A stretch of DNA of 64,000 nt. It comes from Argopecten irradians (Eukaryota > Mollusca > Bivalvia > Pectinida > Pectinidae). Shown piece after piece: positions 1 to 25,200 of the stretch. The stretch lies in contig NC_091138.1 of NCBI RefSeq assembly GCF_041381155.1, forward strand, positions 16,927,255 to 16,991,254, read 5' to 3'. The notes beneath the pieces were generated by a model that made no database searches, was not told the origin of the DNA, and worked only from the letters and a program-made list of their open reading frames with translations. Numbering within the stretch: position 1 is the first letter of the stretch; every line of letters starts with the position of its first letter. A program made the translations under genes and the position numbers.

Positions 1-869
1 AAAATAAGAAATATTGCAATGTGTGTAGATTTACAAACATGGAACAGTACACAAATGTGATATTACGGTATAGCACTTTAAATTCGCGGGGTCAAATTTT
101 CACGGTTTCCAAAACGGAGAATATTCGCGGAAGTTCAATTTTTACGGTTCGGAAATTTCTATATATTTTGAAATATTGTTCCAAGGTACGTCATGGAATT
201 TTTTAATGTTTCGCTGGTGTTTAGCATTCGCAGATTAAAGTGCAAACGTGAATATAGCGAGAATAAACCACCCGCAAATTTCAACCGCTAAACCGTATGC
301 AAAAGAATATTCATATGAAGTGTGAAACTTACAGCAGTGTTTCTGATCTGGTCCACACCAACCCACCGTAAAACGTCTACCATAGCCATTGCTGTCTTGT
401 TAGCTGTAATGAAAATGGACTTTCATAGATATTAAGGATTTTGCATTAAAATTGCTTTCAACAAAATATACATTCAGTTAAACCCATATTAGCTTCTTTT
501 ATTATCATTTTAGAGCAGGTCAATTTAATACCTCAATTATAAATTAATTTAAAAAAAAAAGAAGAAAAAAAAGTTAAATAGAAAGTCTTATTTCTGCAAA
601 AACGGAATTAAAACCATATTCTTGATGCTGTGAATGTGTAACGGTATTTATGAAGCAATGTTTGAGTTTGGAGTAAGGAGGGAATCATACTAAAATAGTA
701 GTTACATTTGAAGACGGTGAGATCTGACTCTAGTTCTCCCATGGTAACACTAGCACCTATACGTATCTCCGAGGAGCTGATTTGCACGCCGTGAAGTTCA
801 GGTATGTTGGTACAGCATATGATGAACTTTTAGAGTTGAAATCCCCTTGACGAAGTAGGTAACCTTCAT

Positions 870-967
870 AGACACATACATAATACATGTATATCGTTTT
901 ACAAAGATATTGTCATTCGTAGACACATACATAATACATGTATATCGTTTTACTAGGATATTGTCAA
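870..967. repeat. Two-copy direct repeat, about 51-bp unit
   Basis: The stretch beginning GACACATACATAATACATG occurs twice in tandem, followed each time by a GATATTGTCA-like end. It lies in the intron between XDH-like exons 7 (1494-1635) and 8 (706-845), next to exon 8. Confidence 0.8.
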
Positions 968-1227
968 ACGTGTTGTTTATTTCCTAGCTTCATCTTCAAC
1001 ACAAAGTCTTTTACACTTCAAAACCGTTTAAAAAGGGACAACTTCCCATCTATTTATATTTATTATTGTATATATTCGTATATACATGTACGCATCATGG
1101 GTCTTTCGTAAAAGTTCTATCAATAAAGTTCAAGGTAATTAAGAAAATATGTTACAATAATAAGAAAAGAAACGCATGTGGGGATATTACATATCTACTG
1201 AAAATCTGCAATATGACCATTTTCGAG

Positions 1228-1350
1228 TGATCAGATGGTGTAGTGGTTAAGCCACTCGCCTTCCACCTAGCCGGTTGGGGTTATGATCCCTGACTTGAAA
1301 AATTCAGTGATCACCTGCCTTAACACGGTACGTCTACGGGAACTCCGGTT
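1228..1350 (+). repeat. tRNA-derived SINE head
   Basis: The sequence TGGTGTAGTGGTTAAG resembles an RNA polymerase III A box. About 35 bp downstream GGTTATGATCCC resembles a B box. The anticodon-arm region cannot fold as a normal tRNA, so this is a SINE derived from a tRNA (Gly-like wording), not a tRNA gene. It runs into a poly-C stretch at 1358-1382 and lies in the intron between XDH-like exons 7 and 8. Confidence 0.65.
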
Positions 1351-4180
1351 TTAACTCCCCCCCCCTCCCCCCCCCCCCACCCACTGTTCCATACAGATTT
1401 GTGATTTGTATAAGTTTATGACTTGTTTCGCAATCAATGTAAAATAAACAAAGTTTAAGTTTGTTAGATATATTGTCGCATTACAGTTCTTACCGATTGT
1501 GTTACACCCGGATACTAGTTGAGCGTCTGGGAATTTGTTGTAGAGATTCAGGAGTTCCTCGAGAGTGATTGGTCGATACCAAGTATACTTAGCACTCCTA
1601 AACTTGACCATTCTATTGTGGTATTCTGGATTCAACTGAAATTCACAGTACAAATTATTCAAATCAATAAAGATCGAACTATACAGTGTATCAATTTCTT
1701 CCAGCGAGTACTTAATCTTTATTTTCAATACTTTAGTTTGGTATTAAATTAACGTCCAATCACCGGTATCGATCTCTGTGAAATTGTATTTATATCGGTA
1801 AAAAAGTTGCTGTGAACATAAAATTATGCTAAATAGTACCCTCTCCCTCCTGTTGTGGAAAAAAAATCATGAAACTTTGACATGCGCAAAAAATGTGCAA
1901 TTACCTAATTAAATCAATATATTTTTTCGTTTTTCGGGTACAACTTTTCGCATAATATCGAAAGCAATTCTAACTCGAACGTGAACGAAAGTATTTCGGT
2001 AATAATTCTGGAAAACGTTTGTATTAATGCATGGTTGTCAGTCTTAGGTCGGGAATTTATGTATTCGTTAATATGTTAACAAAAATGGTTACGTGAACTG
2101 TTGTGTACGAGTACAGTATGTAATTGTGATATTACATACATGTAATAGAAGAGTACAATATTATCGATATGTAACACCTGGTATTTGACGAGTCAGACAC
2201 CTTATGCTTCTTTAATTTAGGAGGGGACATAGAAAAATAAAAAAAAACTACAATACAAAAGAAAAATATCCAACAAACATCTATATCGTCAATTTTTTTT
2301 TACATAAATTATTTATAACGAAAAGAATTTCAATAAGGGAAATCTGCATGCGACATCTTTTTGTTAATATACGTAGTGTTCTGTATATCATAAAAAGTCT
2401 TTGAAATATGCAAGCAGATATTTAAAAACGAGTCACAAACACATGTGACACATGTATATTATTTCAGTTTTTTGTTTATTATCTTTGTTAAATGAATTGC
2501 AAATTCAGACATTAATTTGTCTGTTTTTTATCATCATCCAATATGTTATCCGAAAGTGAGCATAATGTCGTCTAACTTCTTTGTAGTTTTTGATGCATGA
2601 TACTTAACATATTTTGCGCTCTTTTGGAATGTTCTGTTAAAATATTCTGTATATTTTTTTTATATCGATTTAGTCCTTATTTCTGAATAGTAAATAAATG
2701 GATTGTTTTCTTTTTAAATTAATTTCTTAGTCAAGAAATATTTCAACGAAACCGCATATTAGACATAAAATATCTGTATAATGCAGCTAACATACTGTAA
2801 AAGTACATTTTAAGAAAAATAACAAATATCTTTCCTAGATAATAAATACTTCATTAATATTAAAAGAGTGCATTTACCTGTAATTCTGGAGGGAATATGA
2901 CATCTTGTGTCGACACATTTCCTTCGTTTGGTTTTTTAGATTCTGTTTGCACTGTTGTGTCAGATGTCTCCAAACAAAATCCTAATCCACAGGGACATTT
3001 CTGCATTAACAAACACACTGGATGAACTGATAATAATAATGATTGCAAACTCATGTAGTTTGAAATTTGACTAATTAATTTATTTACTGTGTTTGCGCAG
3101 AATCGTCACATAGCATCAACACATAAGAATTAATTCACAGAAATAAACCGATCAATTTTATCTTCATTAGTGGTGCTAGTGTTTGCACAATCGCTGCCCA
3201 ATTCTCTTTCAAAACTTACCTTCTCAAATCACAAACAACACTGAAGATGGATCTTACAGTCGATAGATATGCAGATCATGCACTTTTAAATGAGCATTAC
3301 ATGTGAAATCCTACAATGTTTTAACTTGTAGCAATACGTAACCTCTTTAGGCCGATTTGAAAGCATTCCACAATGGGTCTATACCCTGTACATCTACAGA
3401 GGTTTCCTGAAAATTAGTTAATCAATAATGTGATTTCTAAAGTTCAAACGCCTATAATGTCTGATTTCAAAATAGATATTCTTTTATGAAATCCATAATA
3501 AACAGTGAAAAGAAATTTGACAAGATTCAAATTTAGTGTTCAAAATTTTAATTTAGATCGTAAAAGGGACATCAGAATGTTTTCCCTTCGCGGTAAAAAT
3601 ACACCTCAATTTCTAATGATGAGCAACTAGACTATACTTGTATTCTTTAGATCGTTTAAAACACCTTTTGATCAAGCTTTTACCTCCGCTATTGCGTCAT
3701 ATCAAAGTCCCTAAAGATAGCCATATTTACCGAGCAGTTAAGGTGTTTTACACGTATTGCTATCAAATCCTCTACCTCTGGATTGTAACTTCGAAATCAA
3801 TGTTTGTCAGTTTACAAAAAGTTTCAGAATATAAAGAAAACATCACTATAATACTGTGAAAATTGTAGATTACAACCAACGAAAAGAATAGCAGAATACT
3901 GTGTAAAGAATAGTGAGATACAGAGGGAAAATTGTAATATCACTTTTGCATAGCCAACATATCTTATCCTCTTCTAAATATATCCTTACTTCTATTCCTT
4001 ACTGATACCAACCTTCCAGAACTCTTTCCATTTGATCATTGTGTGGGTTCTGGAATGTTCCTAAATAGTGTATACATGGTCATCACCAAACCAGGGGTAC
4101 AAAATCCACACTGAAGGCCGTGGGACTCCACAAGGCTTTTCTAGGGTTTTAGAAATCAAATTTTAATAGTATTAAACTAA

Positions 4181-7041
4181 ACAAGATGCCTAGAGGGCCT
4201 GTATCGCTCACCTGTTTTTTTTTCTTTGAGTAATTCTGATTTTAGTAACAAGTGATTCAAATATCACAAAGACAAATTGACCCCACGATTTGTTTAATTT
4301 TGAATCCCAATATGATGATATAGATACCAAACGAATATGCTATCCAATACATAGTTTCGGAGAGGAAGTAATTTACATGATTATCATAAAACTAAGAACT
4401 GGGAGAATTATAAGTATTGGAGGAACCGTACAAGTGCGCTGATTTAAAATCTAAAAAAGATCTTTTAAAAATCCTATCATTAAAAACAAGCCAAGCGCAT
4501 TATTATGGAATCATCTTAAATGTATGTCTAAATGTAAGAATCATAAAATTATTCCTAATCAACTGAAATGGTGTGATTATTTCGGATCAACAAGAGATTC
4601 TAGACAAAATAAATGCACAATTTGTAAATGTTTCAAATCTAGTTGAATACAAAGAATTTGATTTATAATGATCATGTGCAAATGAAAGAACATGCATCAA
4701 GGCTGATATCCTCTCAGAATCCTTTCTGCATTCCTTACATAAAATTAGAGGAAGTTGAATCATACATTAAAAAGCTTGATGAAACAAAATCAACTGGTAT
4801 CGATGGAATAGGTCCAAGGGTTATAAAATCATGTAACGTTATTATTTCTCCCTATTTGACTTACATTATAAATTTAAGTTTATCAAAGTCTCGTTTTCCA
4901 TCGTCTCTTAAAGAGGCAAGAGTGACACCATTACATAAGGGTGGCGAAAAAGACAATCTTGATAATTACAGACCTATATCTATATTACCAACTTTTTCAA
5001 AAATATTTGAAAAACATGTTATAAATCATCTTTATAAATATCTTGTAAAATACAAACTTTTACATGCTGCACAGTCAGGTTTTAGGGCAAAACATTCATG
5101 TCAGACAGCTCTAGCCTATCTGATTGATAGATGGATTGATTGCATAGATAAAAACGAAATGATAGGAGCAATATTTATAGATTTTAGGAAGGATTTTGAC
5201 TTAGTAGATCATAATATACTTCTTCACAAGTTAAAATGTTTAAATATTTCACCGTCAAGTATTAGTTGGTTTGCTTCATACTTATGTGGCAGAGTTCAAA
5301 AAGTTCAGTATAGAAATAGCTCCTCATCACCTGAATTCATAAAATCGGGAGTTCCACAAGGATCAATACTGGGTCCTTTATTGTTTATAATTTATGTAAA
5401 TGATATGCCGCAATATGTGAAAAAATTGTCAAATAGATATGTATGCAGATGACAGTACTATGCATGTAAAGGGTATTGACTATACTAGTGTTACATGTCA
5501 ACTACAAGAAAACTTGAATCAAATTGTAAAATGGTGTACATATAATAACATGAAACTAAATCAACGGAAGACCAAATCTATGTTAGTTTCCAGTAAACAA
5601 AAGTCGGGTGATCATATGCCCATGGTATTATATGCAGATAATGAGGAAATACATTCTACCTCATTTCAAAAGCTTTGGGTGTACACATCAATAAAAACCT
5701 CACTTGGGTAGAACAAGTAAAACAAGTTTTATCAAAATTTGAATGTCGATGCCAAAAAAGTTTATTACAATGCATATATTCTCCCAATAATGGACTATGC
5801 TGCTGTTGTATGGGGAATGGCTTGACCCAAGAACAAAAAACTGCAATTACTAAAATTCAAAAACGAGCACTTAGAGTTATTTTGAGCAAATGAACTTTGA
5901 CTCCAAGCAAAGAGCTGTTTAAAGATACTGATGCTCTTCCTTTCGAATATAGAATTATGTATCATACATGTATACTAGTTTATAGGTCATTAAATGATCT
6001 GGCACCTGAATATTTAAAAACTGGTTTTATTTCTTGCAATGAAATGTATCAATATGGGTTAAGATAAACGACACGAAATAAATTAATTCTACCTAGAACA
6101 CACTCTGAATTGTTAAAAAAATCCCATTCCATTACAAAGGAGTTAAGCTATGGAATAACTTACCAGCGAGTTTAAAAACTGTGCCATCACTATTTGCCTT
6201 CAAAAAGAATCTTAAAACTTATTTTTAACAATGTATTTATCAAACTTAAATTCCTTTGCATTCTCGTTTACATGTAATTTTTATCTATATACATGTATAT
6301 TATTAACACCACATAGGCTGCTGTCTCCCTAATATAATAGCTAGTAGATACAATATCGTGTTTTAGTTTTTGTAAATGATTGATAAATCATTTTTATGTT
6401 TCAATGCAATGGAAATACCGGGCATGTTTGGTATTAAATCAACAAAAGTTTATATTGTTTCAAAACAAAATCTGTGTTTGAATAAATGTGAATTTGAGTG
6501 AAAAAAAAATTGACTAAAAGTTTACAATATAATAATGTTAAATTCCTGTCAATATGAATGTATTACATCATGTTTGTTCTTGTTTTCGTCGTATTGTTGT
6601 GAGGGCCATATGTAAGATTAGTACTGTACTAAATATGTAACCCTCGTGAAATAAAGTTTTTATTATTATTATATGAAAAAAGTAGCCTAATAAACCTTTT
6701 TGGCCCCCCGCGCCTAAGGCCCAAGGGGGGTCAGCCCTATCATTTTTTACAATTTTGAATCCCCACCTTATACTGATGCTACCATTGCATAATGAGTGCT
6801 CTCCCATAATCAGTTGCAGAGAAGAAGTCATTAATATGGAAATAGCCAAATTGACCCCTTTTGACCAACGCCCCTCAGTCTGTGACCCATAAGGATGCTA
6901 TCAATCAAATTTTGATGAATTCCGACGAGCGGTTATGGAGAAGTCGATTGTTGACGGACGGACGACGGACGCGGACGCCGGACGACGGACGCCACGATAT
7001 GGCATAAGCTCACCTTGGTCCTTCTGACCAGGTGAGCTTAT
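4181..7041. mobile_element. Dispersed foldback element split by a LINE
   Basis: The left end carries GAGGGCCTGTATCGCTCACC, and the right end runs through a (GACGGACGACGGACGC)-type tract into a perfect hairpin, ATAAGCTCACC (7004-7014) against GGTGAGCTTAT (7031-7041). I recognise this end pair as a common dispersed repeat type in bivalve DNA; no transposase is present. The body holds diverged internal repeats: the stretch around 4285-4380 resembles 6740-6840 (both contain AATTTTGAATCCC and an AGAAGAAGTCAT-like tail). A LINE occupies roughly 4430-6675 inside it. It lies in the XDH-like gene's third intron. Superfamily not determined. Confidence 0.6.
4430..6675 (+). mobile_element. Non-LTR retrotransposon (CR1/L2/Jockey-type LINE), 5'-truncated and decayed
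   Basis: Reverse transcriptase motifs appear in order: NYRPISILP (about 4960), FIDFRKDFDLVDH (5180), GVPQGSILGPLLFIIYVND (5350) and YADD (5442). A C-terminal tail follows (IQKRALRVI at 5855, then LNDLAPEYL near 5995 and a final KNLKTYF near 6220). The frame changes near 5440 and 5685, and stop codons break the tail, so it is not functional as read. The endonuclease domain is absent, which fits 5' truncation. The 3' UTR ends in GTGAAATAAAG followed by an ATT microsatellite near 6660-6673, as is usual for CR1/L2 relatives. The left border is uncertain. It is antisense to the XDH-like gene and nested in the foldback element. Confidence 0.85.
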
Positions 7042-7887
7042 GATTATCAACGTACAGTTGGTTTAAAAACAGGAAAAAAACTTTGATTTACTGTTTTGAA
7101 GAAGAAAATATGTTTACAAAAAAAAAAACCACACACACAAAAACAACTGAAGATCTTGTCTGGCAAGGATTTTTATACAATTGTTCTGGACGTTTTCATC
7201 AATGATCTGATCATATCTATGTATGTTAGATTTACTGTACTGAAGAGGGGCAATACAAAGTTATTTTACAAACAGAAAACAAATCCGCTAAATGCTAAGT
7301 ACTCCAATAAGGAAATCTATTGTACTGAAAAGACAAAGCGAACACTGAACATTTTACCTGATAAGGATAACATTCAACTGACCTGGACCGGATGGAGTCC
7401 ATTGCGAGTACTGCCTATCCCCTCTACTGTGGTCACCGGGCCATTCCGTGTAGGTAACATATCGGTACCAGGCAAGCGTTCACTGTGATGTGCCTTCAAT
7501 ATCAACAAGTAAATATCTAGCAAGTTATTTCTTTGCATATTACAGAGTTATCCCCCTTTCGAGTTCTTATCGATTGTGACGTCATTACTCAATGAGGAAA
7601 AAAAAGTAGTTTTTTTCATGAAAATTATGACATTTCATAAAAAACATGATTTAACAATCAGTGCCTCGCGTGGGAAGATAACAATGAGTATGCAAATGTG
7701 TGGAATGTGTGTAGTCTAACCTTATTGCCTTTGTGTTGATATTGACGTAAGAAACCATCACTGTACAGGCCCCACAAGCCCCTTGTCCGCATGCCTGTTT
7801 GGTACCTGTTAGGTATACTTCTCCACACATCAAGGACAAATAGGATTTCAATGGAAAATAAACATAATTACACAACATGAATTTATA

Positions 7888-8013
7888 TTTGACTATCTTT
7901 CTCTTTTATTTACACTAGTAAAATAGCTATTTGACTATCTTTCTCTTTTATTTACACTAGTAAAAGAGCTATTTGACTATCTTTCTCTTTTATTTACACT
8001 AGTAAAATAGCTA
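7888..8013. repeat. Three-copy 42-bp tandem repeat
   Basis: The unit starting TTTGACTATCTTTCTC and ending GTAAAATAGCTA is repeated three times almost perfectly. It lies in the intron between XDH-like exons 1 and 2. Confidence 0.9.
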
Positions 8014-8449
8014 TTTGATAGATGCATTTTGTTTTCAAAAATTACAAAGGTCAATTAAGCCGTTGACACAACATAATGGAAACATTATACATAACGTAAA
8101 TTGCATGTAAATTATGTAAATAAGGATACAGGATCTTCGTAAGTACTGCAAAAGGGTCGTTTTCCGGATCCGGTTCCCCAATTCGAACCTGAAGGAAAGA
8201 GAGGAAAGGTGATGAATCATTAGATTGCAGCCCGGATTTTGTAAAGTATGGCTGGAAGAAAGTGTGTTATAAAGATACCAGAAACGTGGAAAAATAATTG
8301 CTCACATATCAACACACATGAATAGGATGGTCATTGCCCGCTGCTTCGGTAACAGACATAAAAGAAATTAAATTGAGATGAAGATATTAATCATTTTTAA
8401 AATGACTAGAGATTAGATGGCTGGATGGTTATGCTTAACAGATTAACAG

Positions 8450-8800
8450 CAGCGCTCGAAATTAACGCCTGTCCGTCTGCCTGTGACCGGCAGCTTTTTA
8501 GTCGGGCAGACAATTATTGCCATGTCGCTGGTCCTTTGACCCGCAACTTTTGGTCTAGATAGAGAATATACAAAACAAAAATCCGAATATGCGAATAGAT
8601 TTTACTAATTAGTAAAACTATTACTTAGCTGTTACATTTTTGGTAATTATATAAACTACAAGGATGAAGGATAAATTGTAACTTTTTTAAGGACTAGTAA
8701 CTTTCAGCCAGAACCAGTATTTTTTACGGTTAGCCGCTCCTTAGGACTAGCAGGGGAAAATCCTTAAAGGTGACAAACATAGAAATCTGAAATCATATAT
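8450..8800. other. Intergenic region between the XDH-like and P2X7C-like genes
   Basis: No exon recognised. It contains a GC-richer stretch near 8450-8545 (GCGCTCGAAATTAACGCC, GTCGGGCAGAC) that looks like a decayed dispersed repeat. The missing first exon of the XDH-like gene would be expected at or beyond this region but was not found. Confidence 0.4.
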
Positions 8801-8944
8801 TAACTGCAAATATATATACATTATGTATTTTTCTAAGATAAATTACGACTTAAAAAAATTAAGGTCGACGAAAATTGCCGAAATTCAAATAAAACTGGCG
8901 AAGTGTCTTTGTATCTCAGAGAAAATCTGTACGGGTTACCTCCC

Positions 8945-9030
8945 CTTGAACCGGAAGCGCTGTGACGTCATCTGAGCCAAACAGCACACACTACCGGTTT
9001 ATACACTACATAGAAAAACTCAAGCTAACT
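8945..9030 (+). promoter_or_regulatory. CRE/ETS-containing promoter region
   Basis: A perfect palindromic CRE, TGACGTCA, lies at 8963-8970, just after an ETS-like CCGGAAG (8951-8957). Both sit within 80 bp of the ATG of the P2X7C-like gene at 9031, and no TATA box is seen. The pairing is typical of TATA-less promoters; the regulatory role is inferred. Confidence 0.45.
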
Positions 9031-10916
9031 ATGGAGTTATCCGATAATGATCAGAGCGATTACGACGATATTCCAGAAGTATCGTTTAGTTTAGATATTT
9101 GTCCATATATGTATGAACCTGTAGCACAAACAGACACACAGAATGACTGTAGTTCGCCAGAATTAAGCGAAGACAGCGACGATTCCAGTCAGGACGACGG
9201 CGGCAGTACAGAATGGTTAGTTTACTACACCATGCTATTTACATTTTTTGCATGTCTTCCGCTGTTCTGTGTGTAGTCTGAAGTCAGAACCGCTATTTAC
9301 AGTTTTGAAACTGTTCAAATTTCTGCCCAGTGATACTATGTCATTCCAATCATTTGATTGACATCACCAGAAGATTGTATTTAGTTTGATTATCTGATCA
9401 GCTGATGCCAGTGATGGGGGTAGCCGGATCATGTTTTCACTCGACGTAGCCTAATGAACGTCTAAAAATGTCGTGTAGTATTAAACCCTGACATTGAAAT
9501 TTGTTGCATTGCAGTACCACTCATGCAAAGCAACAAAATAATAATAATTTATTATAATCAGCTGCCCCCCCTTTTTTTTTACAATAGTCACGTGCACTTA
9601 TAGATTGAACTTCAATTTTAATAAAAAAAAGCCGATGAAAATAATACATATTGTGCACGTCTACATTACTTCCTGTTAGTGCTAGATATAAACCACTTCA
9701 TTTCAGTGAAAACACAATGAAAAACAATAGTTAAATTTCATTGTTTATTTATAATTTATCATTTTGAAACACTAACACACACATATATATACAATGTACT
9801 GAATTAATTTAATTGTTGCAAATAAACCAGGCAGTCATATGGATGTTATGATGACTGCTGATGATTCCAAAAATAACTTACAAATAATAAATCTGCAACA
9901 TCCTGTTGAATCTGGCATTCTTATTTAGCTGTTTCAGCAATTATATCAATATAAATTGTTTATTTTTTATATTTATAGCACTTCCTGAAGTCAATAATTC
10001 TTAAGCAAGAGTGTACTTGCCAACAAATATCTGAAACTATATACATACTGTATTAAATTGAAACAGTTAATTCAAACTACAAAATCAGTTATTGATTTTG
10101 GTCATTAAAAACACACAAGAGAGACTCAAAAATATCCCAACAATACTGATACTAAACATTCATCGTGAGTTGTTCTCAAACAACCAAAACAGTATTAACT
10201 TTAATGGTAATCTTAATTGAATAAAAAAATTTCCTTGAACAGGTGTTCTTGTAGTTTTTGCACCCCTATGCCCACAAGTGAGGAGCGAAAATGTTGCCAC
10301 GATATGGACATTTTACAGGAGAAACTAGAAGGCATTAAATGTATAACTCAGCATGAAGGATTTGCAGCAAACTGCTTAAACATCCATGTTCTGGAAACAT
10401 CCTTCTACGAATATGCAGAAGAAAACGATGTTTCACAAGAAAACATCCACAGGTACTTGATCAGATCTACATTATAGTTTCTTTAATCATTGATTATCGC
10501 TGGACTAATTTCATTTTATGATCAAAGATATTTATAGCATAAATGATATAGCATATATAGGGGCCACGGTGGCCGAGTGGGTAAGATGTCTCTATCTATA
10601 GCACAATTATAAAGATTTTGGCACATATTATGTTAATTAATTTATACCTACATATAAAAGGGTAAATTTGTTAGAAGGTTAAGCATTTATAACTTGTGTC
10701 TGTCAACTTTATGCAATTACATTATGTACATTGCTTTGTTTTCTCTCTCTTTAATTTAGAACCTACAGACATGTTGCATATAGAAGGTTCATAAGATGGA
10801 CGTGGAAAGTTCTAGGCAAGAGAAATCGTAAAGTAATACCATCTTGTGCTGTCTCTGCTATTAGAAGAACTTTTCCATCAGAACAGTTCACAGGGTTTCT
10901 CTATCCTCGTTTCTAA
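9031..10916 (+). CDS. P2X7 C-terminal (ballast) domain-like protein
   Basis: Three exons join in frame: 9031-9215, 10243-10452 and 10760-10916, giving 183 residues. All borders are GT-AG and the phases close. Residues 1-60 are acidic and disordered-looking (DNDQSDYDDIPE, SEDSDDSSQDD), with the PYMYEP motif usual in this family. The second exon has a Cys/His cluster, CSCSFCTPM then RKCCHDMD, matching the zinc-binding part of the P2X7 ballast domain. The third gives RTYRHVAYRRFIRW, IPSCAVSAIRRTFP and a final TGFLYPRF, the family's C-terminal signature. There are no P2X membrane segments, so it is a stand-alone cytosolic or nuclear domain protein. In vertebrate P2X7 the domain binds zinc and guanine nucleotide; the function of solitary copies is unknown. 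An in-frame GTG at 8962 is not needed; the ATG at 9031 is chosen. Its 3' end faces a transposase-like gene 75 bp away. Confidence 0.88.
10560..10592 (+). repeat. Truncated tRNA-derived SINE head
   Basis: GGTGGCCGAGTGGGTAAGA resembles the A-box half of a Ser/Leu-type tRNA-derived SINE. No B box follows, so only the first about 33 bp remain. It lies in the second intron of the P2X7C-like gene. Confidence 0.55.
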
Positions 10917-10991
10917 CTGAAAAGTTAGGGTTTTGTATATAGAGGAACATTTTCCATAGGGACAGTTCACTGTGTTTATCAGCCGTCATTT

Positions 10992-13900
10992 CTAACATGG
11001 ATAAGAGTTAAATCTCCTGCAAGTGTTTTGTATAACAGTGTCTCTGTCATAGTTGGTGATCACTGCTCTCCGTTGTCCAGAGATGGATGGTGGAGCAGGA
11101 TCAATCTCTTGAATTAGTGCTCTCTGGGCCTGGCCATAGCTGCTAAACATCTCTCTCCTGACTACCACTTCCTCCATAAGCTCTTGGATGTAATCTGTCA
11201 ATTAAAGAAAGATACCATTATCAGTGTAAAAATGTATCTGTCATTTGTCTTTATATTAATCACCTTGTGAAAATGGTCGGATTATAAAATAATACAGGGA
11301 TCAAATAAGAGTATATTACATAATGATAAGACTATCAATGATTTTCTTACTCAATAACTTCAGGGGCGTACCTTTTCGATTGGGAAAACCCTACATTGCA
11401 TCTTTCTTGAAACTGTTTAAGAGTTTTTTTTCTTTATTTGGTAAAATATTTATATAAACTTAGAAAAATACAGCAAAAAAATCTCTATTTGGCCTTAAAT
11501 GTACCTTAAAGAAATCTCAGGACTACTATTGACCAGTTGTGAGGAATTTACAGAAGAATAGTTAAAGGATGTAGCAAAATCAATATAAATTAATTTTATT
11601 TACCAAAGTTCTGCTTGACTTTAACTTCTTTTGCCACTGGATCACCTTTCCTACTCTTAGGAAATGACACTCTGTATTGCCCTTTTCCATCCTTCATTGC
11701 CTGTGATCTTGATGAATTAGCATTGAAGTGAAGTGCCGCAAGGCAGACTCTGTGAAATAAAAAGAAAATTTTAGAAAAGGTGAAAGATTCCAAGAGCAAT
11801 AACAAAACAATTAGTTATTAAATTTTGAACATGTTATGTTGTTGATTGAATATATATTCATGTGTTTGTTTTGATTCAGTCAACATTTTGTTATCTTGTG
11901 CTATGGACTTATATATATGTTAGTTTAGAAAGTTATAACTACAACAATGAACTATCATTCACTACCTGGCTTTCATCTGGTTGTAAAAGTAGTGTGTTGA
12001 CTTTGGTGCAAAGAAGTTCACAATGTTGTGGTAAGATTCGAGGCTTGACGTCTGTTCTGCTGGAGACAGTTTACCAATGTCCTTCAGAAGCAGTTTACTG
12101 TGGACAATCTTTTTCACTTCTCCCAAAGCCTTGCTACCTGAAATGATAATACAATGTAAAATTAGTGTTTCCTTACACTGACACAGTACACCCATCAGCT
12201 AACAATGTATCACAATTAAAAAGTTAAATAATTAAAAAAAAATCTTGCTGTAATTATATTATATAGTCTTTATAACATTAATAAACTTTTGGAACCTAGC
12301 CATGTCAAGGTTATGGATTTTTAACAAAGTGGTCTTAATAGCGGGGTGGTCTTAATACCGAGGTGCATCGGATTGACTTCTAATCAGTAAGAACCGTAAC
12401 TCTGTACATTATAATTAAAAATAGTATATATACTTGTACTGTACATGTATATACAATGTATATGTATACTATTCAAGCAAACAGCAGGTCAACTTTCTTT
12501 ATCTCATTTCAATTTTGTTATTGTGAAATTAAGAAGTAGCAACATTTCAGTCTGTTTGATGTAATCAAAAGTTAAAGTTATTCACTTCAACAAACTTCTG
12601 TCTTCTTCACAGCATAATTAGTAATTTCGTCAAAAATTACCTGGTATGTCTGTTTCCAATAATGTTTGAAATAATGTGGTTGTACTATGAGTTAATTCTT
12701 AGTTATACCTGGCTTAAACCATATCCTGTCAAGATTTCCATGCTGGCAGCTCTGAAATTTGTCACCATGACTCTCGTGGATGTTAGCTATGTGATTAGTG
12801 ATGCTAGTCCACTTTTGGCGTACGAGTTCCCCATCACCATCACTGCTGGCAGCACACCAATACACATGGTTGCCTATGGATCTTGCCCATTGTCCGACCA
12901 ATGCATATTTCTTTGTCTTGCCAAGAGCTTCCAACTTTTTGTAGACACCTGAATACCAGAAAATATTAGATTAATGACAAGGTCAGAAGATAAATAATTG
13001 ATGCAAGGCAAATGTATGGCCATTGATCTGGATAAGACTTAATTATTAATATATAGTTTCATAGAAACTCAAGTAAATTATATATTCAAATAGCAGTCAC
13101 AACATAATCATAAAATGTTGTACTGCTATATATTCAATTATAAATGTCAGTTAAAGAACTACAGGTAAATATAAGTTATAACCTTTTGAGAACTTAACAC
13201 TATGTGACTGTATAATAAAGTGGTAGAATGCAGGGACTGGTGTACATAAGTTATGCATAACAATTAATTAGCTAAAAGAAGAAAGTACTATTTATTTAAT
13301 TACTCTTTTGAAATATATGAGATTGAAATTTAAACACTTGCCTTTAGCAACATGCCACACGTCAAACCAATGGTTGATACTGGGACATTCTGTTCTCATG
13401 AACTTTTTCACCTGACTGTGTCTATCTGTAACTAAGTCTGATATAGTCATGCCTTCTTCCTGGAGATGATGTAGTGCACGTTTCAGCCCTTCAAGTTCCA
13501 TACCGTAGGAGTTTTTCACTTCATTTGACTGTAAAATTGATATATATTATCATATATACACACACACAAATTATTTCACTTATTGATTTGCCAATTGATT
13601 CAGACTTTTATATGTTCTGCAGATCTCACAATGTATTACATTCTTGATCCATCATGTGTTTTATGTGTATAAATATTATTAAAATATCTAAAACAACAAG
13701 AAAGTTTAAAAATAACTATAACAATGTCACAAATACTTTATATTACACTTACCTGAACAAGTTGTACGTCAATGACTTTTGAAGTCTGTGCATCCATTAA
13801 GGTGTAACTCCCATATTTGGCAGTATGGCCTGGTGAAGAGCATCGAGCATCACCCCCAAGTTTAAGTTTTTGACCACTATTTCGCAGTTGTTCAAACATA

Positions 13901-16361
13901 GTTGACTGCTGAAACTGCCAGCAGGACAAAGTGGAAGGAACTATGTAAGTCCGTTGCAGCATATTGTAGGATGTACAACACAGTCTGGAAATGCCTGCAT
14001 GGTGCATAAAATTTAAAGTCTTAACTGGACTATTTCCACTGAAAAATATTGCACTGGCAATAATGATATTTCCCCAAGGCATAGATTTTGAAAATGGCTG
14101 ACTACACCACTGCCGTGTAAAACCACACATACATCTTGAAGAAAAACACACACATGTCCCTATAATAGTTCTTACATGTTGCAAACTTGTTCTCATACAA
14201 TCTGGACAGGAATCTAAAAGTTCCATCAGACACTGTTCAAACACCACATACTTCTTGGCCTTGTCCGGTTCAGTTTCCTGAGTATCCATGTTAACTTGTT
14301 GATTATCAGCAGTTTCATCATTATCGTCCTCAGTCTCACACGTCGGCACCCAGTCAGGATCATGTGTTGATGAATCAACCTCCTCCTGATAATCATCCAG
14401 ACTCTGGTCTGTTCCAGTTTCCACTACCTGTACACATTTTTTATATCTGGTACACTGTGTCGATGTGTTTTCCATCATACAAGTCGCTTGAACACCACAT
14501 GAAGATTTTGGTCTAGCTGAAGTCACCTGCAGCGACACATGCCGTCGTTGCTGTAAGAGAAAATTAAACAGATATAATTTATTAAAACCTTCATTGAAAA
14601 AAAAAAATCAAGATAAAAGTACTTCAAAAGGTAATTCCATTCAACAAGTTAAGTTTTCTTAATGATCATTAAAATTAAAGTAAGATATTTCCCATCCACA
14701 ATACTCCAGGGGTTACTATCACTGATGTTATAATCACCCCTGGACCATCCTCGATATTCCAGGGGTTCCGATCACTTACGATCTCTACACCCCTGGACTA
14801 TCTCATAGTGAAATTGAAGGCAGCTCAGCGGAAAACATTTGACCAATCACAGGCTAGCAAAGATTTCCTTTGAAGACTACAGAGAGAGCGACTAACATCA
14901 AAGCCACACAGTCAACCACAGTGTACCATTATATGGCTCTTTTGATGTACATCAAATGACTAAATTACCTGTTCTATTCTGTTGCCTCTAGTTTTACTAT
15001 GAGATAGTCCAGGGGTGTAGAGATCGTAAGTGATTGGAACCCCTGGAATATCGAGGATGCCCCTGGACTATCTCATAGTAAAACTGGAGGCAATTGAGGA
15101 GAAAAAAAATGATCCAATCAGTCAATCACAGGCCTCCAGAAACTTCCTTTGAAGATTTCAAAGAGTGATGCCCCACTTCAAAGCCAACACAGTGTAAATA
15201 TACCATTCCTTTGATGTACATCAAGGATTATTACCAGTTTTACTACATGTATGAGATAGTCTAGGGGTGGATAGATATATATAACCTCCATTAATTACAG
15301 TAACCCCTGGAGTATGAGGAGCATATTTCCTCATCAAGGTGTTTTCAAAACATTCATTTACAAATATTTACATATTCTAAATGATGAAAAAGTATTAAAT
15401 ACTTTTCCTTTCTTACAGGTACATATGATATATACTTCTGGTAATGTTAAAGAAATATAATATATCAAATCTTGTAATAAGATGTATTTAAAATTGTAGA
15501 ATTGTACAATTATATTTGACTCTGTATAACATACCACTATATTGTAGGAAGTCTGACATCCAACAGAAAATCTCCCTGTATCCAGATCATCTGTCCCAAC
15601 ACATTTGTCCCTGGAGCCTGGTATTTCTGTCTGTGTCTCAATATGGCACTGGTCTGGTCTGTAGTGCACACTGTCATATTCATTCTCATCCTGATGCATG
15701 TCAGTGATATCAGCTAACATCTAACAATAAATATTTTTGTCTATTAGAATTTATTTCAAGGATATATATTATCAACATTTGCTTTTTTGTACATGTTAAT
15801 GATGCAATATTTCAATACAGTTAGGTTTTTTTTCTTCAATATAGCCTAGCTACTGTTTTAGCAGAAAAAATACATTTGTACACCTTCTGACTTGTGTACC
15901 TTGATAACCTGGTAGCCATATTGGAACCCATGTTACTGCACATGTTTGGCCTATGTTTTTAACTTTTGTTGATTTTTTTAACATGGTATAGATATATAAT
16001 ACTCGCACAATGAAATTATTTTTCGTTAAAAATCCGTTTTCACACATAAAAAACGAATGTTTACTTAAAATGCATAACATACCTCAAATCTTCGTCTTTT
16101 CTGTATCGCACGACTGTAACGACTCCTTGATGTTGACCGTTTCCTGCTTGGTGTTTCATGATAAACAGAGGGGGTTCGATCCCTATTTGCTCTTTCACTA
16201 TCGACATCTCTAGATGTAGGCGAAGAAAAGTTAAAAATGGTGGGGACAGCATCCGGCTTCAGTCTTAAGGACTTAGGGTCATATCTGATGGAGCTCACAA
16301 TGCGGGGATCTTTGGTAAAAGATCGACGGTAAATAGTGTTTTGATCACGTCGTTTTGGTAT
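10992..16361 (-). CDS. THAP-associated DDE transposase-like protein (Kolobok-type candidate)
   Basis: Eight exons are read on the minus strand: 16361-16083, 15720-15535, 14550-13753, 13528-13342, 12948-12709, 12137-11966, 11749-11604 and 11194-10992. They total 2211 nt (736 residues plus stop), and every phase closes. The first visible exon ends a THAP-type domain with LKPDAVPTIFNF; it has no Met, so an upstream exon with the zinc-binding half is missing. Then come a Cys-rich segment (CPDC, CMCGFTRQWCSQPF) and an RNase-H-like core: GGDARCSSPGHTAKYGSYT (first Asp), LVTDRHSQVKKF (second Asp), FDVWHVAKG and QTSSLESYH (Glu). The order fits a D-D-E transposase. Kolobok assignment is from recall of the family and is tentative. 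Intron 4 has a GC donor (AAAG then GCAAGT). Seven introns in an intact frame suggest domestication or a recently active intron-bearing element. Confidence 0.82.
14693..15321. mobile_element. Older inverted-repeat element interrupted by a younger relative
   Basis: The outer ends are CATCCACAATACTCCAGGGG (left) and CCCCTGGAGTATGAGGAG (right). Flanks are GATATTTCC on the left (14684-14692) and CATATTTCC on the right (15322-15330), a near-identical 9-bp duplication. The body between 15068 and 15321 resembles the younger family (CAATCACAGGC, TTTGATGTACATCAA). It lies in an intron of the transposase-like gene. No coding capacity. Confidence 0.7.
14746..15059. mobile_element. Non-autonomous DNA transposon with long TIRs and 9-bp TSD, copy 1
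   Basis: The termini are CATCCTCGATATTCC and GGAATATCGAGGATG, and the inverted similarity extends about 60 bp inward (CTACACCCCTGGACTATC). It is flanked on both sides by the 9-bp CCCCTGGAC (14737-14745, 15060-15068), which is part of the older element it entered. It is 314 bp with no ORF. A 9-bp duplication with long TIRs fits Mutator-like or Merlin-like elements; the choice is open. Confidence 0.88.
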
Positions 16362-16385
16362 CTGTAAACTAGGCTGATTTGAGCC

Positions 16386-16612
16386 ATTTCATCTTTTCGT
16401 CAGACGAAATTTAATAAACCTTAAATTTCGTCTTTTCGGGTTTTTAAAAAAAAATTTTGTAGCCCCGAAAAGACTGGCAAATTTCGTGTTTTCGGGGCGA
16501 AAAGACGAAACGGCGAAAATTAAGGTTTTTTAATTTTCGATTTTTCGCCCCGAAAAGACGAAGTTTAAGATTTGTTTATTTTCGTCTTTTTCGGGCAATG
16601 AGACGAAAGGGC
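16386..16612. repeat. Foldback sequence of TTTCGTCTTTTCG-type arms
   Basis: CGAAAAGACGAAA and its reverse complement recur several times. CGAAAATTAA faces TTAATTTTCG across a short loop near 16515-16540, inside longer arms containing GGGGCGAAAA and TTTTCGCCCC. It would form a strong hairpin. It lies just 5' of the first visible exon of the transposase-like gene. It could be a foldback or MITE remnant. Confidence 0.65.
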
Positions 16613-18266
16613 GCAAAAACGAAATGGCATAAATCAGCCAGCGAAAAGTTTACGCTCATTGGACGCTCGAGTATGGATCATTTCCTCGTAAATCGGACTC
16701 GCGTCTTTGTTATAACTAGCTATGATAAAACTTTCATAATACACCCTAATGCAATCATGGCAAATATTAAAGATTTTGTGCTAGGAAGAATGATTATAAA
16801 ATGCCGCGCAGTTATTAATAATGAATTACGTCATGTTTTAAACGAAATCAAATTTGACATGAAATATGGTTCCACACTGCGAACAGATTTCTCTCCAGTG
16901 CAAAAGTATTTAAATATTCATTAGAATTATTATCAACTGTCAATCTGTGGCGGCAGTTAATTTCTCTGCTATTGAATATTGAATATCCAGCACTATATTA
17001 TTCTCTCACGTAGAGTTATTTCAGGATTTGTATATATATATGCAAACAAAGCTGCTATGATATACGATAATATACATTGTGCAAATCCTGAAATATGTCT
17101 GGCATGGTAGAATGTATCTAAATATATACATAATGTATTACATGTTATATTTTTATTATAACATTACTTTTCCCTACTATATGGAAGACAGAAAGTTATC
17201 CACACAAGATTATTGTTCCAATATGGATCTATCAAAACAAGCATTCTATCTTATTACAAAATAGAGCATCGTCTTAATTGAGCCAAACTATCTACGTAAC
17301 GTTTTTGGAATGGCTTTGGGACACTGGGACATTCGATACACGCGTTATATTTACTCTCGCTAGCTTCAATATGAAGATATACCCATGTTTATTATGATGA
17401 CAAGCGTTCACATTGCATGAAGATCATAACATTGGGGCAAGGGAGATAACGCCCATTCCAAATGCACGTACTAGACCACAAAATTTGTTGTCTTCGAATA
17501 AGCTACATTCCAACAGCTGGAATTGGGCATTTCTTTTAACACGAGAAGAAATTAACATGATGAAGTCTTATTCAAATTTTAGCATTTTTCAAAACAGAAC
17601 ACCGAAGCAAACTACTGGGAACCACTTTACGGGGTTACACGTGTGTATTGTGAAGTACATATGTATATATTAATGTAGTTGTAATTCCTTCAAGTGATTC
17701 GAATTATACAATAAAATAGATGAATGAATTCGGGATGTAATGAAAATGGATATCATAGAATGCATTTGTCTTTTTACAATAGAAACGAATATTTTTAGAA
17801 TATAAATGCGACATATACAACACAAATGATTCAAATTATGGAATACAAATGATTTTTATGATACAAATGCGAAATATTGAAATCAGAATGTAAATGCTAT
17901 AATGTTGAATATAAATGCAAATAAAAAAACCGAGATGGAGGGGGTCGAGGTAACTGCAGGGAAAATAACATCGGCCTACGTGTTTTACATGACAACCTGT
18001 CTAACGTGAATTCTGAAACTGCGAGCCAAGGTAAGGTTGTGTATGATGGTAAGTGCGCTCTTATTAACAGCCAGGGTCATGTAATGGCGGCCTCCTATGT
18101 ATGCGGGATGCAGTGCATGTTTTGGGAGACTGCGGTATATTCGTGTTATGTTTTCTTATGTATAGTGAACTATTGCCTCTTTCATAGTGCCATGCTGCCG
18201 GAGACACCGAGCAACACATCCCACCCTGTCACATTATACTGACAACGGGCGAACGAGTATGCTAAG
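16613..18266. other. Intergenic, no gene recognised
   Basis: Short open frames here show no recognisable domain or splice-supported extension. I searched the minus strand for the missing THAP zinc-half exon and did not find it. The stretch 17760-17925 holds a loose, degenerate repetition of ATAAATGC/ACAAATGA. Confidence 0.5.
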
Positions 18267-18644: not shown

Positions 18645-19800
18645 GCGCTAAGCAGGAATAGAAATTACCACTTTTTTTCATAGACTTTGGTGTTTCTCGG
18701 CCAAGGGACAGAACCCAGAGCCTACCTCACATAGGCGAGTATTCAGCAGAAGGCAAAAAGTGAGGTATTGTCATGAGAGATATTAGGAAGAACAAATTTA
18801 GTTAAAGAAGAAGAGAAAATATAAGATCATCTTGCAAAATCATGTAATAGTGAGCTAGTTTAAAAAGGAAACAAAACCTAACAGGATCTTTTAGTTTTTA
18901 GTATTTCAGGTACTACCAATTAACATTCAGGACATTTAATCCTTGAAATATGAAACATTGGTGATGTGCGTCAAGAAAATCTTGGTGTTGAATTACTATC
19001 ATGTAGTACGAAACGGCGATTATATTTTTAACAGGGAGAAATTATTACTGCAATCAATTAATTCGGCCCATTATCGGCGATTTATTTTGGGATATATTTA
19101 CATACATAATATGGGACCGCGATGCCTGTGTTGTAATGTATTACAACTTGCCCCCAACTCTGGGTCTCGAGTTCGATTACCATGTGGGACAGTTGCCAGG
19201 TACTGACCTAATCATAAAAGATTCTTTTTCTCTCATATTATAACGAGAAATTGTGGAAATTCAGTCGACATGAACGTCGCTGTGCGTAAAAATGGTCATT
19301 GCATATATTGATGACGTCACTGTCTAGCGCGTGTGAGCTGTCTTTTCCCTAGCAACCGCGGGATAACCCTGTCAAGTATGGGAGAATTAACAGTACGGAA
19401 TCACTGAGACAAAGCCTTAATTATTGGCGGTTACCTGCGTCCTTATCTATACACATTAACATAAATTACTACAGGGAAGTTATAACCGATGCGTTCCTCT
19501 CTCGATATATCACGTGGAATACGAATACTAATTTTGAGATCTATGAACATATCTATAACGCGAGAAATCTAATGAGATGTACATACAAAGTATATGGCGT
19601 TACATCTATATGTCTGACGTCCGTCGTCTGTGGCCTTTCATCAGTCTATCAACAATTAAAAAATAAACTTTCTACAAAAATACTGGTCGTAAATTGACCA
19701 AATGATGGCTGACGACATCTAATGACGTGGTGAAATGGTTGGGCTCATTAACTGAGGGCCCAAAGAGTTGGAAGAAAAAGCGGTCTTGATATCGTAATAG
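18645..19800. other. Intergenic with a SINE remnant
   Basis: No gene recognised. At about 19140-19205 a B-box-like GAGTTCGATTACC followed by GGTACTGACC resembles the middle of the mollusc SINE better preserved at 41.6 kb. Confidence 0.45.
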
Positions 19801-19802
19801 TG

Positions 19803-21826
19803 ACAGTGATTTCTACTGTGTTGTGGTGTATGGAGTAACTTGTGACAGTGATTTCCAATGTGTAGTGGTGTATGGAGTAACTTGTGACAGTGATTTCCAC
19901 TGTGTTGTGGTGTATGGAGTAACATGTGACAGTGATTTCCAATGTGTTGTGGTGTATGACGATACGTGTTACAGTGATTTCCAATGTGTTGTGGTGTATG
20001 GAGTAACATGTGACAGTGATTTCCAATGTGTTGTGGTGTATGGAGTAACATGTGACAGTGATTTCCACTGTGTTGTGGTGTATGGAGTAACTTGTGACAG
20101 TGATTTCCAATGTGTAGTGGTGTATGGAGTAACTTGTGACAGTGATTTCCACTGTGTTGTGGTGTATGGAGTAACATGTGACAGTGATTTCCAATGTGTT
20201 GTGGTGTATGACGATACGTGTGACAGTGATTTCCAATGTGTTGTGGTGTATGGAGTAACATGTGACAGTGATTTCCAATGTGTTGTGGTGTATGGAGTAA
20301 CTTGTGACAGTGATTTCCACTGTGTTGTGGTGTATGACGTTACGTGCGACAGTGATTTCCAATGTGTTGTGGTGTATGGAGTAACTTGTGACAGTGATTT
20401 CCAATGTGTTGTGGTGTATGGAGTAACTTGTGACAGTGATTTCCACTGTGTTGTGGTGTATGACGTTACGTGTGACAGTGATTTCCACTGTGTTGTGGTG
20501 TATGGAGTAACTTGTGACAGTGATTTCCAATGTGTTGTGGTGTATGGAGTAACTTGTGACAGTGATTTCCAATGTGTAGTGGTGTATGGAGTAACTTGTG
20601 ACAGTGATTTCCACTGTGTTGTGGTGTATGGAGTAACATGTGACAGTGATTTCCAATGTGTTGTGGTGTATGACGTTACGTGTGACAGTGATTTCCAATG
20701 TGTTGTGGTGTATGGAGTAACTTGTGACAGTGATTTCCAATGTGTGTTGTGGTGTATGGAGTAACTTGTGATAGTGATTTCCACTGTGTTGTGGTGTATG
20801 ACGTTACGTGCGACAGTGATTTCCAATGTGTTGTGGTGTATGGAGTAACTTGTGACAGTGATTTCCAATGTGTTGTGGTGTATGGAGTAACTTGTGACAG
20901 TGATTTCCACTGTGTTGTGGTGTATGACGTTACGTGTGACAGTGATTTCCACTGTGTTGTGGTGTATGGAGTAACTTGTGACAGTGATTTCCACTGTGTT
21001 GTGGTGTATGGAGTAACATGTGACAGTGGTTTCCAATGTGTTGTGGTGTATGACGTTACGTGTGACAGTGATTTCCAATGTGTTGTGGTGTATGGAGTAA
21101 CTTGTGACAGTGATTTCCACTGTGTTGTGGTGTATGGAGTAACATGTGACAGTGGTTTCCAATGTGTTGTGGTGTATGACGTTCCGTGTGACAGTGATTT
21201 CCACTGTGTTGTGGTGTATGGAGTAACTTGTGACAGTGGTTTCCAATGTGTTGTGGTGTATGACGTTCCGTTTGACAGTGATTTCCACTGTGTTGTGGTG
21301 TATGACGTTACGTGTGACAGTGATTTCCACTGTGTTGTGGTGTTTGGAGTAACTTGTGACAGTGATTTCCAATGTGTTGTGGTGTATGGAGTAACTTGTG
21401 ACAGTGATTTCCAATGTGTTGTGGTGTATGGAGTAACTTGTGACAGTGATTTCCAATGATTTCCAATGTGTTGTGGTGTTTGGAGTAACTTGTGACATTG
21501 ATTTCCAATGTGTGTGTGGTGTATGGAGTAACTTGTGACAGTGATTTCCAATGTGTTGTGGTGTATGACGTTACGTGTGACAGTGATTTCCACTGTGTTG
21601 TGGTGTATGACGTTCCGTGTGACAGTGATTTCCACTGTGTTGTGGTGTATGACGTTCCGTGTGACAGTGATTTCCACTGTGTTGTGGTGTATGACGTTCC
21701 GTGTGACAGTGATTTCCACTGTGTTGTGGTGTATGACGTTCCGTGTGACAGTGATTTCCTCTGTGTTGTGGTGTATGCCGTTACGTGTGACAGTGGTTTC
21801 CACTGTGTGGTGGTGTATGACGTTAA
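19803..21826. repeat. 42-bp minisatellite array, about 48 copies
   Basis: A 42-bp unit containing TGTGACAGTGATTTCCA and GTTGTGGTGTATG repeats head to tail. Because 42 is a multiple of three and the unit has few stops, long frames stay open on both strands (14-residue repeats such as YGVTCDSDF). Two main variants alternate: GGAGTAACTTG and GACGTTACGTG/GACGTTCCGTG. The last copies, about 21600-21760, are a homogeneous GACGTTCCGTG block. A local slip with two partial units occurs near 21455-21530. I treat the frames as repeat artefacts, not genes. Confidence 0.95.
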
Positions 21827-22289: not shown

Positions 22290-25200
22290 CGATCACCTCC
22301 AACATAGAATACCGCCAACATACAACACCACCGAATATATACAACAACACCAATATAGAACACCACCAACAAATAATACCACCAACATACAACACCACCA
22401 ATATACAACACCACCAACATACAACACCACCAACATACAACACCACCAACATACAACACCACCAAAATACAACACCACCAATATACAACACCACCAAAAT
22501 ATAAATTCACCAACGTACAACACTACCAATGTACAACATCGCCAAAATATAATACCACCAACACACAACACCACCCTCATACAACACACCACCAATATAC
22601 AACACCACCAATATACAACACCACCAACATACAACACCACCAACATACAACACCACCAATATACAACACCACCAACATACAACACCACCAACATACAACA
22701 CCACCAATATACAACACCACCAACATACAACACCACCAACATACAACACCACCAACATACAACACCACCAATATACAACACCACCAACATACAACACCAC
22801 CAATATACAACACCACCCAACATACAACACCACCAATATACAACACCACCAATATACAACACCACCAACATACAACACAACCAACATACAACACCACCAA
22901 CATACAACACCACCAACATACAACACCACCAACATACAACACCACCAACATACAACACCACCAATATACAACACCACCAACATACAACACCACCAATATA
23001 CAACACCACCAACATACAACACCACCAACATACAACACCACCAACATACAACACCACCAACATACAACACCACCAACATACAACACCACCAACATACAAC
23101 ACCACCAACATACAACACCACCAACATACAAACCACCAATATACAACACCACCAACATACAACACCACCAACATACAACACCACCAACATACAAACACCA
23201 AATAAACCAACATATACAACACCAACATACAACACACATACAACACCACCAACATACAACACCACCAACATACAACACCACCACAATACAACACCACCAC
23301 ACAATACAACCCACCAAATACAACACCACCAAAATACAACACCACCAACATACAACACCACCAACATACAACACCACCAACATACAACACCACCAACATA
23401 CAACACCACCACATACAACAACCACCAAACAAACCACCAACATACAACACCACCAAATACAACACCACCAACATACAACACCACCAACATACAACACCAC
23501 CAATATACAACACCACCAAATATACAACACCACCAACATACAACACCACCAACATACAACACCACCAACATACAACACCACCAACATACAACACCACCAA
23601 TATACAACACCACCAACATACAACACCACCAATATACAACACCACCAAAATACAACACCACCAATATACAACACCACCAATATACAACACCACCAATATA
23701 CAACACCACCAATATACAACACCACCAACATACAACACCACCAATATACAACACCACCAAAATACAACACCACCAATATACAACACCACCAACATACAAC
23801 ACCACCAATATACAACACCACCAACATACAACACCACCAATATACAACACCACCAACATACAACACCACCAACATACAACACCACCAACATACAACACCA
23901 CCAACATACAACACCACCAACATACAACACCGCCAAAATATAATACCACCAACATACAACACCACCAATATACAATATAAACCAACAACACCACCAAATA
24001 CAACACCACCAAACATACAACACCACCAACATACAACACCACCAATATACAACACCACCAACATACAACACCACCAAAATACAATACCACCAACATACAA
24101 CACCACCAATATACAACACCACCAACATACAACACCCACCAATATACAACACCACCAATATACAACACCACCAATATACAACACCACCAATATACAACAC
24201 CACCAATATACAACACCACCAATATACAACACCACCAACATACAACACCACCAACATACAACACCACCAACATACAACACCACCAATATACAACACCACC
24301 AACATACAACACCACCAACATACAACACCACCAACATACAACACCACCAACATACAACACCACCAACATACAACACCACCAACATACAACACCACCAACA
24401 TACAACACCACCAATATACAACACCACCAACATACAACACCACCAATATACAACACCACCAACATACAACACCACCAACATACAACACCACCAATATACA
24501 ACACCACCAACATACAACACCACCAATATACAACACCACCAACATACAACACCACCAACATACAACACACCACAAATACAATACCACCAACATACAACAC
24601 CACCAAATACAACACCATCCCCCAAATACAACACCACCACAACAATACACAAACACCACCAATATACAACACCACCAATATACAACCACATACAACACCA
24701 CCAATATACAACACCACCAACATACAACACCACCAAATACAATACCACCAACATACAACACCACCACATACAACACCACCAACATAAACACCACAAATAC
24801 ACACCACCACACAACATACAACACCACCAATATACAACACCACCAAATACAACCACCAATATACAAACCACCACAAATACAATACCACCAATATACAACA
24901 CCACCAATATACAACACCACCAACATACAACACCACCAAATAAACACCACCAAATACAACACCCAACAACATACAACACCACCAATATACAACACCACCA
25001 ATATACAACACCACCAACATACAACACCACCAATATACAACACCACCAACATACAACACCACCAATATACAACACCACCAACATACAACACCACCAATAT
25101 ACAACACCACCAAAATACAACACCGCCAATATACAACACCACCAACATACAACACCACCAATATACAACACCACCAACATACAACACCACCAACATACAA

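Follow-up and report, generated by a model that had tools for sequence, protein, structure and literature searches.

A solitary P2X7-type ballast gene of Argopecten irradians lies in a truncated copy of a probable two-gene Kolobok transposon

A 64,000-nucleotide stretch of the Argopecten irradians genome (NC_091138.1, forward-strand positions 16,927,255 to 16,991,254 of assembly GCF_041381155.1; hereafter the window) carries a gene for a P2X7-type ballast domain packed tail to tail with a transposase-like gene. We conclude, with a probability of about 0.93, that window positions 8768–16323 are an end-truncated copy of a two-gene, cut-and-paste DNA transposon of the Kolobok superfamily. The ballast gene is called KolX here, after the gene of the Kol0 lineage that has a ballast fold (Kojima & Bao, 2022; PMC9587614). 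A sequence-only reading of the window had suggested that the ballast domain might be the second gene of a transposon, an idea now borne out by tail-to-tail pairing at 38 of 56 ballast loci, 18-bp inverted ends, TTAA target sites and an empty site. The same reading knew of no explanation for the large number of solitary ballast proteins in invertebrates; the transposon idea has been in print since 2022 (PMC9587614).

Results

Copies of the element share borders at TTAA

A DNA search with window positions 8400–17400 returned five further places with long matches (C743, C6, C597, C1 and C13). Six places including the window thus carry the unit, and pieces of at least 600 bp are 91–100% identical to the window, with shorter ones down to 81%. 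Pairwise matches start at window 8761–8772 for the C743, C6 and C1 copies, at 9740 for C597 and at 9364 for C13, and in all five they end at 16323. The window, C743 and C6 have the left border, TTAA followed by AGGTGACAAACATAGAAA, and in C1 it is altered; the border comparison did not find the left ends of the C597 and C13 copies. The right end reads ...TTTCTATGTTTGTCACCT, then TTAA in C6, C597 and C1, with an altered site in C13 and altered sequence in C743. The termini, AGG...CCT, are of the 5'-RR/YY-3' type, and Kolobok target duplications are TTAA-specific (PMC9587614). The C6 copy (C6:40177298-40185253; 7,956 bp with both TTAA) has matching 18-bp inverted ends with TTAA on both sides. Although the sequence-only reading saw no terminal inverted repeats around the pair, the left one is there, AGGTGACAAACATAGAAA at 8768–8785 directly after TTAA at 8764–8767, and its partner is missing because the right end of the window copy has been lost.

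The joined flanks of the C6 copy gave a one-piece match to C6:40232679-40233514 (97% identity, query 1–842 of 844), which, judged by this match, is an empty site, another version of the same site that lacks the element. On C4, a paralogue of the window's left flank agrees through the TTAA and three more bases and then diverges. An exact 22-base search of the genome found 11 ends, including both C6 ends; two exact-end pairs on C13, 1.1 kb apart (7175766–7176869 and 7265697–7266802), have perfect TTAA and inverted ends and are probably short derivatives that the family's transposase has mobilised.

Inside the ends, the window and C743 copies have a 21-bp block with TGACGTCA upstream of KolX, and the C6 copy has it with one extra base. 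All five other copies carry the block in inverted orientation close to the right end, where it precedes the transposase gene. Such a shared block might serve as a control or binding site. At ballast locus L054, TGACGTCA has a single match, at 3856, within the element, and loci L052, L053 and L055 gave no match. In the C6 copy, the first and last 900 bp have no direct match longer than 18 bp in common.

The two genes of the window copy

The features of the copy are as follows (window coordinates, strand, description, basis).

8764–8767, no strand: TTAA target site, left end (copy borders; C4 paralogue of the left flank)
8768–8785, +: left terminal inverted repeat AGGTGACAAACATAGAAA (borders, end comparison, end scan, exact-end search)
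8959–8979, +: 21-bp subterminal block that contains TGACGTCA and precedes the KolX ATG (copy comparison)
9031–9215, +: KolX exon 1 (splice-site check of donor and acceptor)
10243–10452, +: KolX exon 2, bearing most of the zinc-ligand cysteines (exon model and alignment)
10760–10916, +: KolX exon 3, with the RHxAYR, PSC and IR motifs and stop codon TAA at 10914–10916 (exon model, profile search, alignment)
10992–11195, -: last transposase exon, with the stop codon (exon model)
11605–11748, -: transposase exon (exon model)
11965–12138, -: transposase exon with the third acidic residue, LESYH (exon model; motif by eye)
12327–12464, no strand: 138-bp stretch missing from the other five copies (pairwise comparison)
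12710–12949, -: transposase exon with a Cys/His stretch (exon model)
13343–13528, -: transposase exon with the second Asp (VTDRH) and the DVWH motif (exon model and alignment)
13753–14550, -: transposase exon with the first Asp, GDARCSSPG (exon model and alignment; acceptor by eye)
14745–15062, no strand: short intronic repeat (at least 29 other places in the genome, 92–97% identical)
15535–15720, -: transposase exon (exon model)
16083–16323, -: what is left of transposase exon 1, with the end of THAP and the AVPTIF box, cut at 16323 (borders, exon model, Pfam)

KolX, on the + strand, is intact and multi-exon, as the sequence-only reading had stated: its three exons, separated by GT-AG introns, encode 183 amino acids. 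The Pfam profile P2RX7_C matches this protein with an E value of 7.9e-21 and is the only domain matched in the Pfam search, the P2X channel domain being absent. The best P2X7 chain in the PDB matches at E 2.5e-8, the query being a splice version in which one Trp is missing. An end of exon 1 at 9213 was replaced by 9215 once donor and acceptor had been checked, which brings back a Trp common to the P2X7 chains (WCxC); the model ending at 9213, two bases short and without this Trp, is the basis of the THAP-set Pfam, PDB, locus-comparison and residue-alignment steps.

The transposase gene lies on the - strand from 10992 to 16323. Its stop codon (TAG at 10992–10994) and that of KolX (TAA at 10914–10916) are separated by 75 bp, the spacing reported from the letters alone. 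That account also took the second gene to be multi-exon and intact; multi-exon it is, but it is truncated at 16323, where homology to the other copies ends and most of THAP is gone. Past this point the C743, C6, C597 and C1 copies continue for approximately 455–470 bp and C13, because of an insert, for approximately 1.3 kb. This extension, absent from the window, comprises the right end and the first transposase exon, in which THAP is complete, as read in C743: the C743 exon matches the THAP profile over its whole length (E 8.6e-17), compared with the last 17 profile positions in the window (E 0.039, under the cut-off). Since most of THAP and one end are missing, the window copy is probably not autonomous.

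By eye and by alignment, the catalytic motifs GDxR, VTDxH, DVWH and LESYH make up a DDE triad with C/DxxH between the second D and the E, and the transposase alignment, read by eye, has no CCHC finger after the first D. Pfam matches of the transposase to ISL3 and MULE were weak and under their cut-offs. The repeat at 14745–15062 lies in the transposase intron of the window, C743, C6 and C597 copies, and not in C1 or C13. Between the window and the C1 copy, whose KolX start codon is altered, the ratio of replacement to silent rates (dN/dS) of the transposase is 0.68 by simple counting (17.2 silent and 44.8 replacement changes), a weak sign of constraint; the calculation used in-frame aligned exon blocks only, among them one that has an internal stop, and kept a few C1 residues at frame edges.

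Just past the truncation point, window 16372–16639 is a fold-back sequence whose inverted ends, 28 bp long, match imperfectly (82%), and related repeats adjoin the broken left end of the C597 copy. Elsewhere in the window, large tandem arrays occupy 19800–21819, 22294–26445, 28471–29642 and 35670–38131 (units of 42, 16, 44 and 46 bp), and a 269-amino-acid open frame at 4643–5449 looks, by eye, like part of a reverse transcriptase.

Ballast and transposase genes are linked across the genome

The genome contains 68 exon matches to the P2RX7_C profile, which form 56 ballast loci. Transposase searches gave 123 rows with the window query and 121 with the L053 query, of which 212 were used and formed 85 clusters, a few of them based on rows of 23–25% identity that may be other transposases. 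A transposase cluster lies within 10 kb downstream on the opposite strand at 37 of the 56 ballast loci, compared with 0.03 expected by chance; with two more queries (L054 and L052) the count rose to 38 by the addition of C337. Within 12 kb, a neighbour pair in a tandem on C544 was the sole other arrangement. With the window and L053 queries, 48 of the 85 clusters had no ballast partner; these include the C1, C597 and C13 copies, whose ballast exons the P2RX7_C search did not list. As this search scores the best candidates only, the linkage counts are lower bounds. Alignment with the other ballast loci of the genome, as the sequence-only reading had proposed, thus returned a recurrent tail-to-tail pair, shared borders and TTAA.

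The pair also recurs in distant relatives, being tail to tail in each of L052, L053 and L054. Compared with the window, L054 is 54% identical in KolX and 52% in the transposase, and L053 39% and 33%; by these values, KolX and the transposase diverge together.

An association of ballast genes with piggyBac, reported for a few families (PMC9587614), was not seen here: PF13843 had 123 matches, the closest of them 65 kb away from any of the 56 ballast loci and outside the 10-kb limit. One scan of viral contigs with one peptide pattern, which matched 30 stretches, confirmed no viral relative. Nor was a ballast domain fused to a P2X gene seen in the genome, where PF00864 matches are confined to C9:9.12 Mb, a position apart from the ballast loci.

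Weighing the alternatives

Several points weigh against a mobile two-gene element. Its mobility is deduced from borders, ends and the empty site. TTAA and repeat are intact at both ends in one of the six copies read, and that copy, C6, has stops or frame breaks in both genes. Its empty site is 48 kb away and known from the sequence match, and no empty site was found for the C743 copy. When up to two mismatches were allowed, the real end pattern gave 19 matches and the reversed control 26, and for this reason only the 11 exact ends were counted. A simple scan did not find TTAA-flanked inverted ends for L052, L053 and L054, perhaps because the stretches scanned were not long enough or the ends have degenerated too far. 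Of the copies of the window family, it recovered both ends only in C6; it missed C743, C1 and C13, in which ends are altered or absent, and returned a chance-like pair in C597. At 18 of the 56 ballast loci no transposase was found within 10 kb. Finally, linkage is the one line of evidence for a role of KolX in transposition, and the dN/dS of KolX between the window and C1 copies, 0.49 by simple counting (4 silent and 8 replacement changes, 12 in total), is a weak sign of constraint.

Some of the 18 transposase-less loci might be domesticated host genes with the ballast domain in a cellular function, which we regard as possible, if rather unlikely. Domestication has been proposed for zebrafish Nanor (PMC9587614), and open frames at these loci reach 181 amino acids, as at C10:39093976, which covers profile positions 65–189 in one frame. 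However, L055, the only one of the 18 that was read, is broken, with an in-frame stop and the His replaced. The sequence-only reading had named ballast copies beside unrelated genes as a result that would refute its hypothesis; such copies are not the rule here, with no transposase detected at 18 of the 56 loci. The match at C10:39093976-39094359, a single open frame with no transposase found near it, is possibly an intronless or domesticated copy.

KolX could also be a passenger, a host gene that the element carries but that takes no part in transposition. We found no experimental or functional study of KolX in the open-licence literature, and the 18 loci with no detected transposase would fit a passenger. 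We nevertheless consider it improbable, as two or more distant transposase lineages in this genome have the pair in the same layout, and KolX is reported as a Kol0-lineage trait in diverse animals (PMC9587614).

An ordinary segmental or tandem duplication of two neighbouring host genes is very hard to sustain: the genome does duplicate segments, as the empty site 48 kb from the C6 copy and the C4 duplication of the left flank indicate, but a comparison of at most 3.5 kb of flank on either side found nothing in common between copies except short repeats, which the window shares with C597, and the borders of the copies coincide with TTAA and inverted repeats, with an empty site at C6. The C4 duplication of window 1–8773 consists of two partial copies, with pieces 86–98% identical, one of which reaches the TTAA of the insertion site; the right flank of the window insertion on C4 was not recovered in the window.

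Residues and kinship shared with P2X7

We aligned four KolX copies (window, L053, L001 and L008) with the ballast stretches of the P2X7 chains 9e3m_A and 6u9v_A, which we take to be human and rat. Invariant among them are seven zinc-ligand cysteines, Arg-His-x-Ala-Tyr-Arg, Pro-Ser-Cys and Ile-Arg. The His of the Arg-His pair is also found in L054, where Pro-Ser-Cys reads Pro-Ala-Cys, and is lost in the broken L055. At the guanosine diphosphate (GDP) site, the KolX copies keep R546, H547 and R578, and R574 and K583 are absent (numbering of PMC7016195). That paper describes H547 as not found in invertebrates and, elsewhere, as kept in sea urchin and acorn worm and not beyond deuterostomes, whereas it is present in all four KolX copies aligned and in L054.

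A small unrooted tree built from seven sequences splits the window and L054 from L001, L053, L008 and the two P2X7 rows with a support of 99/97, and carries a long-branch warning. P2X7 is 34–45% identical to L001, L053 and L008 and 29–36% to the window and L054, with overlapping ranges; alignment scores do not overlap (176–248 compared with 99–136). Based on the tree, identities and scores, P2X7 looks nearer to the second KolX lineage, that of L001, L053 and L008, which we take as a lead and not as proof.

Discussion

We propose that the transposase would bind the element's ends via its THAP domain and move the element into TTAA by cut and paste, and that KolX would be an accessory zinc protein of transposition, retained because it helps the element. 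The tail of P2X7 would then have been gained by capture of a KolX, perhaps one of the second lineage. P2X7 is reported to have arisen from a P2X4-like gene and KolX (PMC9587614). That the P2X7 ballast could have come from a mobile element was also a hypothesis of the sequence-only reading, and the kept residues and the tree are consistent with such a step, for which we lean on the 2022 paper and on homology.

As the P element transposase, a THAP-DDE enzyme, requires guanosine triphosphate (GTP; PMC7776569), KolX might conceivably be a guanine-nucleotide subunit of the Kolobok transposition complex, a separate protein where the P element has a GTP-binding domain within its transposase; we offer this as a long shot. 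If true, the GDP site of P2X7 would be a relic of a transposon cofactor pocket around the Arg-His pair, which is invariant between the aligned KolX copies and P2X7.

The result is an independent demonstration, within one genome and from raw sequence, that solitary ballast genes are largely transposon genes, and carriage by a transposon would explain why ballast proteins are numerous and scattered. It lends support to the transposon origin published for the P2X7 tail and gives a hint as to which of the two KolX lineages is nearer to the donor. Solitary ballast proteins had been described across Metazoa, including oyster and limpet, with no link to transposons (Rump et al, 2020; PMC7016195). Transposon genes travelling together might account for the linkage to two markers that this paper describes as the 'ancestral synteny' of ballast genes.

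Among known systems, the closest is Kol0/KolX. Ballast proteins have been assigned to Kolobok elements, and KolX-bearing Kol0 elements have been named from vertebrates, annelids, cnidarians and sponges among other hosts (PMC9587614). Because this transposon link was already published, the element is, by its sequence, a new family within a known kind; new here are the family, the within-genome tally, the two distant KolX/transposase lineages, to one of which P2X7 appears nearer, and the Arg-His pair kept in the aligned copies. Compared by published features, with Kolobok-1_XT as representative, it shares with Kol0/KolX the TTAA, the RR/YY termini, a DDE transposase with no CCHC finger after the first D, a ballast second gene and, in relatives of the window copy, THAP, which is N-terminal in Xenopus Kolobok transposases (PMC6004289). 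It differs as another family, 7.9 kb long with several exons per gene. KolobokP likewise combines a Kolobok transposase with a second gene on the other strand (PMC9587614), but the C6 copy lacks long terminal direct repeats, and the second gene here is KolX and not a His-Me nuclease. The P element and THAP9 share THAP and a DDE-type transposase, with a target duplication of 8 bp (PMC7776569) compared with TTAA here. The P2X7 ballast (9e3m_A, 6u9v_A) has in common with KolX the seven zinc cysteines, Arg546-His547, Tyr550 and Arg578, whereas KolX lacks the P2X channel and Arg574 and Lys583 of the GDP site.

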